Made by a program: the position numbers and the translations under genes. From NCBI RefSeq assembly GCF_001854805.1, contig NZ_MBLO01000230.1:1-64000 (forward strand): DNA of 64,000 bases, given 5' to 3'. Of the stretch, positions 38,803 to 45,603 are shown piece by piece (position 1 is the first letter of the stretch; every line of letters begins with the position of its first letter). The notes below the pieces were generated by a model that had not been told where the DNA came from, did no database searches, and saw nothing but the letters and a program-made list of their open reading frames with translations. Source of the stretch: Pseudofrankia coriaricola (GTDB lineage Bacteria; Actinomycetota; Actinomycetes; Frankiales; Frankiaceae).

Positions 38803-39185
38803 TTTCGGTTACCTGGAGTGGTCGGCCGTGTGCGGCTGAGTCGGCCGCTGCCGGGCCAGCGGAACCGGGTCGGCGTGTTTTTCCTCGGCCGACATCACGC
38901 CCCGGGCCCGTCCCGGGAGTGTCCGTTCGCCGGGGCCCGGTGTCAGCCCCGGACCGTGGCATCTGAGCCTGCCTATAGACACGCCAATCCAACACACATG
39001 CCCACCGGGGGATCGAACTGTGTTGGTTGAGCCTGCCTATGAACAGGCCCAAGTGCCACACATCCGCGCATGGCCGATCTCGGGCCGTGGACGGCCCGGC
39101 GGGAGTCGCCTCGCCGTCTCGCCTGGAGGGAGCGCCTGGGCGCCGGGGTTTGCGGCGGGACCGGGTGGCGAGGCCTGGGGCGGCC

Positions 39186-39197
39186 TACCGTTGGGAC
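39186..39197 (+). promoter_or_regulatory. -10-like box for leaderless gabT
   Basis: TACCGT (39186-39191) ends 6 nt before the ATG and there is no Shine-Dalgarno, consistent with leaderless transcription. Confidence 0.3.
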
Positions 39198-40634
39198 ATG
39201 ACGACGACCGCCGGCCCTTCCGCCCCCATCGGCTCAGCCCCGAATCGGGAAGTGGGCGGATCGGCGCATTCTGGCGACGCTGTCGCGGCCGGAGCGGTTT
39301 CGGCCGGCGGGCCGGGGCTGCCGCAGCGGCGGCAGCTGGTCACCGAGCTGCCGGGGCCGCGGTCGCGGGAGCTGCTGGCGCGCCGTGACGCGGCCGTCGC
39401 GCGGGGTGTGTCGATCGCCCTTCCGGTCTTCGTCACCGCGGCGGGCGGCGGGATCCTGGTCGACGTCGACGGGAACGCGCTGATCGACCTCGGCTCCGGG
39501 ATCGCCGTCACCACCGTCGGCAACAGCGCCCCACGGGTCGTCGACAACGTGATCGCGCAGGTTCAGGCGTTCACCCATACCTGCTTCATGATCACGCCGT
39601 ATGAGGGCTACGTCGCGGTCTGCGAGCAGCTGGCCCGCCTCACCCCGGGCGACCACGACAAGCGCTCGGCGCTGTTCAACTCCGGGGCCGAAGCCGTCGA
39701 GAACGCCGTCAAGATTGCCCGGATCCACACCCGCCGCCAGGCCGTCATCGTCTTCGACCACGCCTACCACGGGCGCACCAACCTGACGATGGCGCTGACC
39801 GCCAAGAACCAGCCCTACAAGAACGGCTTCGGCCCGTTCGCGCCCGAGATCTACCGGGTGCCGCTGTCCTACCCGTTCCGCGACGGCCTGACCGGCCCCG
39901 AGGCCGCCGCCCGCGCGATCGGGATCATCGAGAGCCAGGTCGGCGCCGCCAATGTCGCCGCTGTCCTTATCGAGCCGATCCAGGGCGAGGGCGGGTTTAT
40001 CGTCCCGGCCGAGGGCTTCCTGCTGGCGCTCGCGGACTGGTCGCGCGCTAACGGCGCTGTGTTCGTCGCCGACGAGGTGCAGACCGGTTTCGCCCGCACC
40101 GGCTCGATGTTCGCCTGCGAGCACGAGGGCGTCGTCCCCGACCTCGTCGCCACCGCCAAGGGCATGGCCGGCGGCCTGCCGCTGTCGGCCGTCACCGGCC
40201 GTGTCGAGATCATGGAATCCGCCCACCCCGGCGGCCTCGGCGGCACCTACGGCGGCAACCCGCTGGCGTGCGCCGCCGCCCTCGGCGCCATCGAGACCAT
40301 CGAGCGCGACGGCCTCGTCGACCGGGCCCGCGCGATCGGCGAGCGGGTGCTGCCCCGCCTGCGCACCGTCGCCGGGCGAATCCCGGCCATCGGCGACGTC
40401 CGCGGCCGTGGTGCCATGCTCGCCGTCGAGATCGTCGACCCCGCCACCAGCCAGCCGGACGCCGCCGCCACCGGCCGTGTCGCCCGCCGCTGCCACGAAC
40501 AGGGCGTCGTCGTCCTCACCTGCGGCACCGACGGCAACGTCCTGCGCCTGCTGCCCCCGCTCGCGATCGGCGACGACCTCCTCGACGACGGCATCACCGT
40601 CCTCACCGAGGCCCTCGGCTCCCTTGCCCTCTGA
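39198..40634 (+). CDS. gabT: 4-aminobutyrate transaminase (class III aminotransferase)
   Basis: A 478-residue PLP enzyme that moves the amino group of 4-aminobutyrate to 2-oxoglutarate, giving succinate semialdehyde and glutamate. Class III features: ALFNSGAEAVENAVKIAR, FDHAYHGRTNLTMALT, VLIEPIQGEGGFIVP, VADEVQTGFARTG, and the PLP lysine K321 in TAKGMAGGLPLSA. This wording is characteristic of actinobacterial GabT. The first 45 residues are Ala/Gly-rich and variable. ATG 39198 is placed by leaderless geometry. With pruA at the window end and the glutamate dehydrogenase next door, it belongs to glutamate/GABA metabolism. Confidence 0.88.
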   Translation: MTTTAGPSAPIGSAPNREVGGSAHSGDAVAAGAVSAGGPGLPQRRQLVTELPGPRSRELLARRDAAVARGVSIALPVFVTAAGGGILVDVDGNALIDLGSGIAVTTVGNSAPRVVDNVIAQVQAFTHTCFMITPYEGYVAVCEQLARLTPGDHDKRSALFNSGAEAVENAVKIARIHTRRQAVIVFDHAYHGRTNLTMALTAKNQPYKNGFGPFAPEIYRVPLSYPFRDGLTGPEAAARAIGIIESQVGAANVAAVLIEPIQGEGGFIVPAEGFLLALADWSRANGAVFVADEVQTGFARTGSMFACEHEGVVPDLVATAKGMAGGLPLSAVTGRVEIMESAHPGGLGGTYGGNPLACAAALGAIETIERDGLVDRARAIGERVLPRLRTVAGRIPAIGDVRGRGAMLAVEIVDPATSQPDAAATGRVARRCHEQGVVVLTCGTDGNVLRLLPPLAIGDDLLDDGITVLTEALGSLAL

Positions 40635-40675: not shown

Positions 40676-41998
40676 CTAGCGGTTGCGGACGTGGGGCCCC
40701 AGGCCGCTGTCGGTGAACTGGACGCGTTCGACGAGCAGGCGCAGCTCGCGGATGGCGACCGTGGCCGCGGCGACGTCGAGAGGGCCGGTGCCGACCCGCA
40801 GGTCGGTGGGCTGGAAGCCTGCCCGGCGGGCGGAACGGGGGCGGGGCTCACCGGACGGTGGCTCGCCGGCGAGCTCGGCGAGGACGGCGGTGAACGGGCC
40901 CACGGCCTCGGCGCGCTGGACGAGCCAGCGGGAGGTGAGTACCCGCGGACCGTCGGCCAGGTAGGCGTGGGCATCCCCGCCGGTGCTGGTCGGCTCCCGG
41001 GTCCCGGGTGAGATCGGGGCGTCGGCGCGGGCCGCGGCGAGGACGAGCCAGTCGAGGGTCGCCCACAGCTCGGTGAGCCGGGCCCGCAGCGCCGCCTTGG
41101 CGGCAAGCGTCCAGTGCGAGTCGGCGGCGACGTCGACCAGCCGGCCATGCAGGCCGGCGAGGCCGAGCCAGCGGCCGAGTACCACGTGCACCGCGGCGGC
41201 GTCCTCGACGGCCGCCGGCGCCGGCACCGGCGAGGCGACCAGCAGGTCGAGCGCGGTGCCGAGCGCGCCGAGCCCCGAGATCGTCCCGGTCAGGTCCCCG
41301 CCCGCGCCCGCGCCGGTTACGCCGAACGAGGCGGCGAGGTCCGCGGCGGGCCCGCGCAGCCGCTCGGTGACGGCCGTCGTGCCCGCCCGGCCGCGGGCGT
41401 GGCGTAGCAGCCACTCGCTCGCGAGCTCGTGGAACTCGCGGGCCGCGCGGCGGCCGGCCAGCTCGGCCGCCGCTTCCATCGCGTCGCCGCGCCGGTCGAG
41501 TGCCGCCCACAGCCCGTCGAGGCCGAACAGCACGGCCGCCGCCGCGTACGCGCGGGCGGCGTCGGCGCTGGTCACGCCGGTCTGCTCCTCGAGCCGGAAG
41601 ACGAAGCCGGGCCCCAGCCGGTTGACCAGCTCGTTCGCCAGCCGGGTCGCGATGATCTCGCGGACCAGCGGGTGCGCGCTGATCCGCCCCGCGAAGCGCT
41701 CCCGCACCGCGGGCGGGAAGTAGTGCTGGGCGACCAGGTCGAGCGCGGGCGTGTCCGGCAGCGTCGAATCCAGCAGCTCCTGACGCACGAGTATCTTCGC
41801 CTTGGCCTGCAGCACGGCGAGCTCCGGGCGGGTGAGCCCGGAACGCGCCCCCCGCAGCTCCTCCAGCCGGACCTCCGACGGCAGGTGGTCCAGCGACCGG
41901 ACCAGGCCGGAGCGGACCTCCAGATTGCGCAGCAGCCGGATGTGGCGGTCCAGGAAGTACGGCGCGTAGGTCGCCGCCAGGCTCACCGCGACCGCCTG
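40676..41998 (-). CDS. NAD-glutamate dehydrogenase, C-terminal segment after an in-frame stop
   Basis: These 441 codons directly continue the preceding gene in the same frame after a TAG at 41999-42001. The first possible start is GTG 41986 (VSLAATYAPYFLDRHIRLLRNLE). The content matches the helical C-terminal domain of large bacterial NAD-glutamate dehydrogenases: GLTRPELAVLQAKAKI, REIIATRLANELVNRLGPGFVFRLEEQTG. The translation stays well conserved right up to the stop. Either the TAG is read through, or the two halves are made separately, or this is a recent nonsense mutation or sequencing error. No independent ribosome site is obvious before GTG 41986. Confidence 0.8.
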   Translation of the reverse strand, partial: QAVAVSLAATYAPYFLDRHIRLLRNLEVRSGLVRSLDHLPSEVRLEELRGARSGLTRPELAVLQAKAKILVRQELLDSTLPDTPALDLVAQHYFPPAVRERFAGRISAHPLVREIIATRLANELVNRLGPGFVFRLEEQTGVTSADAARAYAAAAVLFGLDGLWAALDRRGDAMEAAAELAGRRAAREFHELASEWLLRHARGRAGTTAVTERLRGPAADLAASFGVTGAGAGGDLTGTISGLGALGTALDLLVASPVPAPAAVEDAAAVHVVLGRWLGLAGLHGRLVDVAADSHWTLAAKAALRARLTELWATLDWLVLAAARADAPISPGTREPTSTGGDAHAYLADGPRVLTSRWLVQRAEAVGPFTAVLAELAGEPPSGEPRPRSARRAGFQPTDLRVGTGPLDVAAATVAIRELRLLVERVQFTDSGLGPHVRNR

Positions 41999-42001
41999 CT
42001 A
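41999..42001 (-). other. In-frame TAG separating the two parts of NAD-glutamate dehydrogenase
   Basis: The minus strand reads ...GAC AGC GCC TAG CAG GCG GTC GCG GTG AGC..., with homologous protein on both sides in one frame. The following CAG resembles the start of known leaky contexts (UAG CAR), but readthrough is not shown. Confidence 0.85.
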
Positions 42002-44287
42002 GGCGCTGTCGTCGAGGACGGCGGTGGCGACGTCGTCCGTGAGCGAGCGCAGCAGCTCGTCGCGGCCCTCGCGGGTCAGCTCACCCTCGTCGACGGCGCC
42101 GGCGAGAAGGATCTTCAGGTTGACCTCGCGGTCGGACGTGTCGACACCGGCGGAGTTGTCGAGGAAGTCGGTGTTGATCTTTCCTCCGAGGTGGGCGAGC
42201 TCGACGCGGGCGGCCTGGGTGACGCCGAGGTTGCCGCCCTCGACGACGACCCGGGCGCGCAGCTCGTCGGCGTCGACGCGGACCGCGTCGTTCGCGTGGT
42301 CGGCGGCGTCGTCGTGGCTCTCGGTGCTGGCCTTGACGTAGGTACCGATGCCGCCGTTGTAGAGCAGGTCGACGGGAGCGCGCAGCAGCGCCTGGATCAG
42401 CTCGACCGGCGACATCCCGACGCTGTCGCTGTCGCCGTCGCCGGTGTCGGTGTCGGTGTCGGTGTCGACCGAGGCGCCGTCGCTGGCGGGGGCGGCCGCG
42501 GGGGGGAGGCCGAGAACCTCTCGGGCCCTGGCCGAGAGCTCGACGCTGCGGGCGTCGCGACGGAAGACCCCGCCGCCGGTTGAGAGGATCTTGGGGTCGT
42601 AGTCCGCCCACGACGAGCCGGGCAGGTCGTAGAGCCGCTGCCGCTCGGCGAACGAGGCCGCCGGGTCGGGATCCGGGTCGAGGAAGACGTGCCGGTGGTC
42701 GAAGGCGCCGATCAGACGCATCGAGCGTGACCGCAGCATCCCGTTGCCGAAGACGTCGCCCGACATGTCGCCGATACCGACGACCGTGAAGGGATCGCGG
42801 TCGGCGTCGACGCCGAGCTCGCGCAGGTGCTGGCGGGCCGACTCCCAGGCACCCCGGGCGGTGATCCCCATCGCCTTGTGGTCATAGCCGGCCGACCCGC
42901 CGGAGGCGAACGCGTCGCCCAGCCAGTAGCCGTACTCGGCGGCGATCTCGTTGGCCAGGTCGGAGAAGGTGGCGGTGCCCTTGTCGGCCGCCACGACCAG
43001 GTACGTGTCCGGATCGTCGTAGCAGACGGTGCGCTCCGGGCCGACCGGCTTGCCGCCGGCCAGGTTGTCGGTGACGTCCAGCAGGGCCGAGACGAACGTC
43101 CGGTACGCGGCCCGCACCCTGTCCTGGCTCGGACGCCCGCCTCCCGCCCCGGTACCGGCCCCGCTCGCGTCGCCGGTACCAGCCCCGGCCCCGGCCCCAG
43201 CACCGCCATGGACACCGGCGGCCAGGGTCGGCTCGTGCAGGACGAAGGCGCCCTTGGCACCGTCGGGGACGATGACGACGTTCTTGGTGACCTGCGCGCG
43301 GTAGAGGCCGTGCACCTCGGTGCGGTAGTCCTCGGGCCGGTCGGAGAACCGCAGGCCGCCACGGGCCACCCGCCCGCCGCGCATGTGCACGCCCTCGACG
43401 GTCGGCGAGGTCACGAACACCTCGACCCAGGGGCGCGGCGCTGGCAGAAACCCGAGCCGGGACGAGGCGATCTTCAGTGCCAACGCCGGCTTCGGCCGCC
43501 CGGCCACGTCGCGCTGGTAGTGGTTGGTACGGATCACCGCGGCGAGCACGTCGCGCAGCCCGCGCAGGATCCTGTCCTCGTCGAGACTGGCGACGGCGGC
43601 GAGCAGCGCCTCCAGCCTGGCGGACGCCCGCGCGGCACCGGCCGCCCGGTTGTCCGGGCCGCGGCGGTCCGGGCGGTCCGGGCGGTCCGGGCCGGCGTGG
43701 TCCGGGTCGAAGCGGGCCCGGAAGTAGTCGAGCAGCCCGTGGGCGAACGCGGGGTTCGCCAGCACTGTCCGCGCGGCGTAGCCGTGCGACAGGCCGACGC
43801 CGGTCTGGTGCAGGAACCGCCAGGCCGCCCGGATGACGTTCACCTCGCGCCACGGGACCCCCGCGCTCAGCGCCAGCCGGGTGAACCCGTCCAGCTCAGC
43901 CTGCCCCGTCCACACCGCGGCGAACAGCTGCCCCAACGCCGCCCGTACCGCCGCGTCCGCGGACACTGTGCCCGACGGCTCCGGCAGCCGCAGCAGGTAC
44001 TCGTCCCGCTCGGATGTCCTGGACCCGTCGGAGACGGCCGGCGGCCGGTCGTGGTCGACGACCTCGACGCCGAGGCGGGTGAACACGTCGACGACGGCCG
44101 CGAGCGGTGGCCGTCCCGTCGCCACCGGCCAGGTCAGCGCGCACCGCGTCGTCCCGCCGGCGCCGTCGCTGAACGTCATCTCAGGGGCGGCGGCCGCCGG
44201 CGCGCCGGACGGCCCCACCACCCGTGCCTGACCACCGTTTCCTGCCCCCGCCTCGGGGCCGTCCGTCCCCGCGCCACCTGCACTCAC
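41999..44287 (-). CDS. gdh: NAD-glutamate dehydrogenase, catalytic part, N-terminally short
   Basis: A 762-residue product with the catalytic domain of the 180-kDa bacterial NAD-glutamate dehydrogenase family, which deaminates glutamate to 2-oxoglutarate. Conserved blocks are LALKIASSRLGFLPAPRPWVEVFV, RVARGGLRFSDRPEDYRTEVHGLYRAQVTKN, GIGDMSGDVFGNGMLRS, and DLLYNGGIGTYVKAS. Normal members have about 1600 residues; this frame begins only at the region before the catalytic domain, so roughly 450-600 N-terminal residues are absent and nothing matching them lies upstream. It ends at a TAG, after which the C-terminal domain continues in frame. Repeats (DTDTDTDT, GAGAGAGTG) sit in linkers. It is probably decaying, or a short variant relying on readthrough. 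Confidence 0.78.
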   Translation of the reverse strand: MSAGGAGTDGPEAGAGNGGQARVVGPSGAPAAAAPEMTFSDGAGGTTRCALTWPVATGRPPLAAVVDVFTRLGVEVVDHDRPPAVSDGSRTSERDEYLLRLPEPSGTVSADAAVRAALGQLFAAVWTGQAELDGFTRLALSAGVPWREVNVIRAAWRFLHQTGVGLSHGYAARTVLANPAFAHGLLDYFRARFDPDHAGPDRPDRPDRRGPDNRAAGAARASARLEALLAAVASLDEDRILRGLRDVLAAVIRTNHYQRDVAGRPKPALALKIASSRLGFLPAPRPWVEVFVTSPTVEGVHMRGGRVARGGLRFSDRPEDYRTEVHGLYRAQVTKNVVIVPDGAKGAFVLHEPTLAAGVHGGAGAGAGAGTGDASGAGTGAGGGRPSQDRVRAAYRTFVSALLDVTDNLAGGKPVGPERTVCYDDPDTYLVVAADKGTATFSDLANEIAAEYGYWLGDAFASGGSAGYDHKAMGITARGAWESARQHLRELGVDADRDPFTVVGIGDMSGDVFGNGMLRSRSMRLIGAFDHRHVFLDPDPDPAASFAERQRLYDLPGSSWADYDPKILSTGGGVFRRDARSVELSARAREVLGLPPAAAPASDGASVDTDTDTDTGDGDSDSVGMSPVELIQALLRAPVDLLYNGGIGTYVKASTESHDDAADHANDAVRVDADELRARVVVEGGNLGVTQAARVELAHLGGKINTDFLDNSAGVDTSDREVNLKILLAGAVDEGELTREGRDELLRSLTDDVATAVLDDSA

Positions 44288-44679
44288 GGCCTCACCGGCT
44301 TCTCCATAGTCCTGACGGCCCTGCCCGGACGACCCGGTCCGAGCGCCCGGTCCCGAGCGCCGAGTTCCGGGGACCGGTCCCGAGGGCTCGGTCCCGACGG
44401 CCCGATATCGCGTCGGTGGTTGTCCACGTCCTACCTGACGCTAGAACTCGCGCCGAGATCGTGTCGTCCTGACAGGGTGGCCAGCCACATGTGCGGTGAC
44501 GCCCGGGCGACAGGTCGGGACTTGCGTAGCCATCGCCGGACACGCGCGGTCTGAAGTAGCCTCCTGCCACCGGGGCCGCACCCAGTGCCACGGCGAAACA
44601 GTGTGCATGCCGTCCCGCGGGCCTTGAGCGGCACGTGACTGCGGCGAGCGGCCGGCTCATGCCAGGAACAGGGGCAGCA
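44288..44679. other. Divergent intergenic region
   Basis: No gene seen and no trace of the missing N-terminal domain of the glutamate dehydrogenase. Tandem CGGTCCCGAG-like motifs occur around 44335-44400. Confidence 0.45.
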
Positions 44680-45603
44680 ATGGACCAGCCCAGCTTCACC
44701 AGGTCAGCGGGTACAGGCTCCGACGCGGTCCGGAAGGCCCGGGTACGCCTCACCGGGCTCGACGTGGACCTCTTCCGCCACCCGCTCGACCGGCAGGCCA
44801 CCAACAACCTCAAGAGGGTCCCGGGGTTCGACAAGGCGGTCGCGAGGTTCATCGAGTGGGGCGTCGAACGGATCGAGTACGTCGAGCACACCGCGTCGGG
44901 CGTGCGCGTCGGGCCCCGGCAGCTGCCCCGCGTCCATGGCCTGCTGCGCGAGGCCTGCGCGGTCCTCGACATCCGCGAGCCCGAGCTCTACGTCCGCCAG
45001 GGGCCCCCGAACGCCTACACATCGGGGCACAACCACCCCTACATCGTGCTGTTCACCGAGCTGATCGACCTCATGTCCGAGGACGAGCTCCTCGGCGTCC
45101 TCAGCCACGAGGCCGGGCACATCAAGTGCGGCCACGTTCTCTACAAGACGATGGCGCGGGTGTTCGGTGGCGCGGCGACCGCGGGGATGCGGCGCGTGAA
45201 CCCGATGACGGTCGCCGTCGGGCTGGGTATCGGCGCGGCGCTGAAGAGCTGGGACCGCGCGTCGGAGTTCACCGCCGACCGCGCCGCGATGCTGGCCACC
45301 CAGGACCTCGACGCCTGCGTCGGGATGATGATGAAGCTCGCCGGTGGCGTCCGGTCCGACGAGATGAGCACAGCCGCGTTCCTCGAACAGGCCCAGCATC
45401 TGGACGTCCTCGCGGCCGAGAGCAAGATCTCCCGGCTCCACCGTTTCCAGCTGCGCGTCGGCAGCGGCCATCCGCTCGTCGTCGAGCGTGCCCGCCGCTT
45501 CCAGGAGTGGATCGCCAGCGGCGAGCCCGGTGACATCGTCGCCCGGTACGCGGCGGCCACCGTCCCCGCCCAGCCCACCACCGGTCCTGACGGCCGGTAC
45601 TAG
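44680..45603 (+). CDS. M48-family metallopeptidase
   Basis: A 307-residue zinc protease. The zinc motif HEAGH is at 143-147, with the third ligand Glu in SEFTADRAAML. YTSGHNHPYIVLFTELIDLMSEDEL is the usual segment before the active site. Unlike HtpX, it has no obvious long membrane helices before the motif; a moderately hydrophobic stretch (MTVAVGLGIGAALKSW) follows it. ATG 44680 is preceded by GGGGCAGC; GTG 44635 and ATG 44659 are alternatives. The substrates of these short actinobacterial M48 proteins are unknown. Confidence 0.82.
   Translation: MDQPSFTRSAGTGSDAVRKARVRLTGLDVDLFRHPLDRQATNNLKRVPGFDKAVARFIEWGVERIEYVEHTASGVRVGPRQLPRVHGLLREACAVLDIREPELYVRQGPPNAYTSGHNHPYIVLFTELIDLMSEDELLGVLSHEAGHIKCGHVLYKTMARVFGGAATAGMRRVNPMTVAVGLGIGAALKSWDRASEFTADRAAMLATQDLDACVGMMMKLAGGVRSDEMSTAAFLEQAQHLDVLAAESKISRLHRFQLRVGSGHPLVVERARRFQEWIASGEPGDIVARYAAATVPAQPTTGPDGRY

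Follow-up and report, generated by a model that had tools for sequence, protein, structure and literature searches.

The large NAD-glutamate dehydrogenase (GDH) of Mycobacterium smegmatis has been modelled with a catalytic domain at residues 702–1220 and a C-terminal domain at residues 1221–1594, and its subunit contacts are made via ACT*2, ACT*3 and the C-terminal domain (excerpts of PMC8175468). The large GDH of the genus Pseudofrankia is like L-GDH115 (e.g., Nocardia farcinica A0A0H5NTF9), a likeness by domain content that follows the naming in the same excerpts: the catalytic and C-terminal domains lie in one long frame across the genus, with little of the N-terminal ACT/PAS region known from the 180 kDa type. 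Unlike in L-GDH115, a TAG codon interrupts this frame in Frankia (Pseudofrankia) sp. strain BMG5.36, a soil actinobacterium, and only there among the eight genomes examined. This strain bears the window, the whole 64,000-nucleotide stretch of DNA that was analyzed. The interruption probably arose recently, by a nonsense substitution specific to this lineage, in the one large GDH gene that was found in BMG5.36.

The minus-strand GDH frame, running from GTG 44287 to TAG 40676, comprises 1,203 codons and is open except for the TAG at 42001..41999 (Table 1). No second stop or frameshift was found in this frame, and X814 of P0001 is the one odd codon when the frame is read through. Compared with the M. 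smegmatis GDH (7a1d), the upstream part matched chain positions 547–1207 (E value, 1.5e-177) and the downstream part positions 1221–1412 (E value, 1.7e-29). According to Pfam analysis, GDH_HM3 and Bac_GDH_CD lie upstream of the premature TAG and GDH_C lies downstream; position 487 of the 497 in the Bac_GDH_CD model is reached before the TAG, and GDH_C starts 52 residues past it. The third-position GC content downstream of the TAG is 0.95. An earlier note on this DNA had claimed that a single in-frame TAG splits a conserved NAD-glutamate dehydrogenase, with both sides in the same frame and conserved and with no other lesion. All of this was borne out: both sides match 7a1d, the read-through protein and the seven congener proteins align along their length, and the premature TAG is the only stop before 40678..40676. 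The lengthwise alignment with seven congeners excludes chance as the cause of the matched open parts.

Table 1. Features of the interrupted large GDH gene of BMG5.36, in window coordinates
Feature	Position	Strand	Remark
Premature in-frame TAG	41999..42001	-	Glutamine codon in 7/7 congeneric genomes
Upstream open part (762 codons from a GTG start), encoding helical motif 3 and the catalytic domain of the large NAD-glutamate dehydrogenase	42002..44287	-	
GDH_HM3 (PF21078)	43703..43900	-	Pfam, residues 130–195
Downstream open part, 440 codons, same frame as upstream: C-terminal domain	40679..41998	-	
GDH_C (PF21074)	40871..41842	-	Pfam, residues 53–376 of downstream part
Normal end of the gene, TAG	40676..40678	-	
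GTG, codon 5 past the premature TAG, with modest SD-like stretch; possible reinitiation site	41984..41986	-	

Homology of the BMG5.36 GDH begins only at position 547 of 7a1d. A deletion of the N-terminus as a further lesion was considered and rejected: the start region is comparable between BMG5.36 and its relatives, and the N-terminal part of the 180 kDa enzyme is absent from the congener proteins too. The genus has therefore probably inherited the short form from its ancestor. The domain set of L-GDH115, Bac_GDH_CD, HM3 and GDH_C, is complete in the protein of the congener G004; the same three domains are present in BMG5.36, where the TAG interrupts their frame.

If the TAG acts as a stop, translation would end after residue 762. 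The product would keep all of the catalytic domain except its last residues and would lack the C-terminal domain. The deposited 7a1d chain has 1,611 residues, of which about 17 are likely an N-terminal tag. Allowing for this tag, the TAG would fall near native residue 1191, approximately 30 residues before the border between the catalytic and C-terminal domains given in the excerpts of PMC8175468. Since the C-terminal domain is used in subunit contacts according to those excerpts, the truncated chain would miss a contact domain and would probably lack stability or activity.

The position was compared with seven congeneric genomes (G001–G007), which include Pseudofrankia asymbiotica NRRL B-16386 (G001), Frankia nepalensis CN7 (G003), Frankia sp. 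AgB1.9 (G006) and the MAG HOG45C (G007). The large GDH gene is present in all eight genomes of the genus, BMG5.36 included. Identity to the G004 protein, the first row of the alignment, was 86% for the window protein and 74–86% for the other six. The earlier note had proposed comparing this codon in sister strains; the TAG column proved to be a sense codon, for glutamine, in all seven congeners. A wider contig scan gave 67 loci, of which 54 covered the column (four of them being congeners already among the seven), and none of the 54 carried a stop. At this column, loci outside the genus have widely differing residues (A, Q, D, L, S, R, V, E, F and T); at the next position, 52 of the 54 rows have glutamine.

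It is known that readthrough motifs of one type have the form UAG-CAR-YYA. The six bases past the premature TAG are CAGGCG, and the earlier note had likened UAG-CAG to the start of known readthrough contexts. The CAG right after the TAG is the ordinary codon of the gene, identical in all seven congeners, and therefore no special readthrough signal. Folding of one 171-base stretch at the TAG gave no special structure (z = -0.46; 67 of 200 shuffles folded as well or better). Thus, neither a conserved stop (0/7 congeners, 0/54 loci) nor a stimulatory context or structure of the kind that goes with programmed readthrough was found here. A suppressor tRNA, which the note had suggested looking for, was not found either: a CUA anticodon occurs in none of the 69 tRNA genes of the genome (69 Rfam matches, all read by ARAGORN), a survey in which degenerate tRNAs below the cut-off, or tRNAs in unassembled sequence, could be missed. 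TAG terminates 28 of the 133 coding-like ORFs on two contigs, C230 and C259 (TGA, 90; TAA, 15). When the premature TAG is left out, it still accounts for 27 of 132 ORF ends, including the end of this very gene. Past that end, further TAG codons follow in frame at 40249, 39871, 39853, 39817, 39766 and 39610, before a TGA. Amber suppression would therefore lack its CUA tRNA, its avoidance of TAG as a terminator and, in the sampled sequence of the two contigs, any other accepted TAG-split gene. Programmed readthrough or genome-wide TAG suppression can draw on the shared frame and the conservation on both sides, but in view of these results both are extremely unlikely. The results likewise argue against a reassignment of TAG.

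A cluster of 21 tRNA genes within approximately 3 kb, including Gln(CTG) and no suppressor, lies elsewhere in the genome (L050, G000:C11, 2197–5145, plus strand). Large parts of it occur together in G001, G004 and G003, among the matches listed. As most of the array also occurs in three congeners whose codon at the TAG column is a sense codon, it was rejected as a cause of the TAG. Positions 2654–2772 of L050, within the array, hold a dispersed repeat of approximately 118 bases that is present in dozens of full or partial copies in BMG5.36 and its relatives; no copy was found in the window at an E value of 1e-5.

A real TAG could leave function in place in two ways: a near-cognate tRNA-Gln(CUG) may misread it at a low level, or a C-terminal chain may be produced by reinitiation at GTG 41986 and assemble with the first chain. 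The site lies just before the border between the catalytic and C-terminal domains, and the column varies freely outside the genus; the protein would thus probably accept an inserted residue there. The genome has two tRNA-Gln(CTG) genes, and misreading of UAG by a glutamine tRNA has been reported (excerpt of PMC5289835). The GTG is the fifth codon past the TAG and comes with a modest SD-like stretch. The duplex energy of this stretch, scored against a typed anti-SD tail, is the third best of 39 in-frame starts and is equalled at 7.4% of positions. The insertion of glutamine at UAG was reportedly also the subject of a 2003 paper on E. coli. Against these points, the GTG is kept in six of the seven congeners, whose frame is intact, and it is therefore no adaptive response to the TAG; two other in-frame starts have a better SD-like score, and the fold at the TAG is ordinary. 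Persisting function is thus considered unlikely. A more elaborate version, in which a two-polypeptide GDH or a minor glutamine read-through product makes the stop a dosage or assembly switch at the domain border, is very doubtful.

The main rival to a recent nonsense mutation is a wrong base in the draft assembly, in which case the gene would be intact in the organism. The BMG5.36 assembly, MBLO00000000, is an Illumina draft of 11,203,906 bases in 280 contigs with a mean depth of 28.0×, the lowest of the three strains reported (PMC5391423). A single false base at such a depth would also agree with a gene that otherwise looks intact and with constraint that continues downstream. A survey for other broken genes was performed by comparing C230, the contig that carries the window, with four relatives, whose coding-like ORFs matched 58,898 of its 75,570 bases, and C259 with two relatives (162,716 of 269,860 bases matched). 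No other premature stop or TAG-split gene was accepted in these 221,614 matched bases. Five stops were flagged on C230. Of these, only the premature TAG was picked up through all four relatives, and only there was third-position GC of the coding type both before and after the stop. The other flagged stops, four on C230 and 15 on C259, failed the composition test with one exception. This was the TAG at C259 166543, whose GC by codon position (0.45/0.63/0.90) resembles that of a gene read in antisense, and it was discarded on inspection. Six possible frameshifts were flagged, at C230 4237 and at C259 30373, 35829, 88138, 181928 and 203776; these aside, the assembly does not appear error-rich. 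Moreover, consensus errors are rare at 28×. An assembly error is therefore held to be possible but rather improbable.

The constraint on the downstream half was examined with codon changes polarized by the outgroup G003. The BMG5.36 branch carries seven nonsynonymous and 16 synonymous changes after the TAG, compared to 10 and 27 before it; the two sisters together carry 10 and 29 after the column and 28 and 44 before. A simple Poisson bound limits any relaxed period to at most about 0.22–0.23 of the BMG5.36 branch. Pairwise dN/dS values involving BMG5.36 were 0.363 and 0.300 after the TAG versus 0.217 and 0.224 before, and the values for sister versus sister were 0.247 after versus 0.271 before. 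Maximum likelihood protein branch lengths gave a double ratio of 2.0 (bootstrap, 1.02–3.70; 3 of 100 replicates at or below 1), and two of 100 column permutations were as high. The post/pre branch ratio of the intact G006 was 2.01 versus 1.85 for BMG5.36, and the other intact branches ranged from 0.81 to 1.47. When lineage-specific residues were counted without polarization, BMG5.36 had 28 after the TAG and the sisters had 15 and 11 (Fisher p = 0.02), with 26, 29 and 30, respectively, before it. Of the 28 residues, 13 are derived, eight match the outgroup G003 and thus reflect change on the sister stem, and seven show a third state. The downstream half thus showed no clear decay, as the polarized codon counts showed no difference and the branch ratios were borderline. 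As far as these comparisons tell, constraint on the downstream half persists, and any sign of relaxation is weak at best. This pattern fits a recent mutation, and it also fits an assembly error. After a nonsense substitution, the time elapsed would have been too short for the downstream half to lose its gene-like appearance.

It is generally known that strain-specific nonsense mutations and young pseudogenes occur in draft genomes, and the GDH gene of BMG5.36 resembles these in having a single lesion where relatives have a sense codon and in showing no visible loss of constraint as yet. Nothing found sets it apart from them. The earlier note had weighed a recent nonsense mutation against programmed readthrough, suppression and a base error. 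The recent mutation is the best supported of the four, whereas readthrough and suppression are not supported, given the sense codon in 7/7 congeners, the lack of a CUA anticodon among the 69 tRNA genes and the normal use of TAG as a terminator.

A search of the genome for a second large GDH gave a single match and nothing further at an E value of 0.001. A small GDH (50 kDa type) was matched by an open frame of 472 amino acids on C276 with the domains PF00208 and PF02812, and glutamate synthase by an open frame of 1,526 amino acids without stops. Since both genes are present, it can be expected from the gene content that glutamate is probably still made. A nonsense substitution would remove the C-terminal domain of the large GDH, and this loss would be affordable because glutamate synthase and the small GDH remain. 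For the small GDH (L070, G000:C276:65095–65796), the best NCBIfam models were those of haloarchaeal GdhB and archaeal GdhA, below their cut-offs. The scores are lowered because the scanned stretch did not include the start of the protein. That the gene stems from an old transfer is a guess. The opposite-strand neighbours of the large GDH gene are an M48 peptidase (44635–45603, plus strand) and a class-III aminotransferase (39027–40634, plus strand).

The finding has little reach past the annotation of this gene. It illustrates how tRNA genes, relatives and terminator usage help to tell a lone in-frame TAG from recoding. BMG5.36 is a probable natural knock-out of the large GDH, which may make it convenient for comparisons in work on the nitrogen metabolism of non-infective Pseudofrankia.
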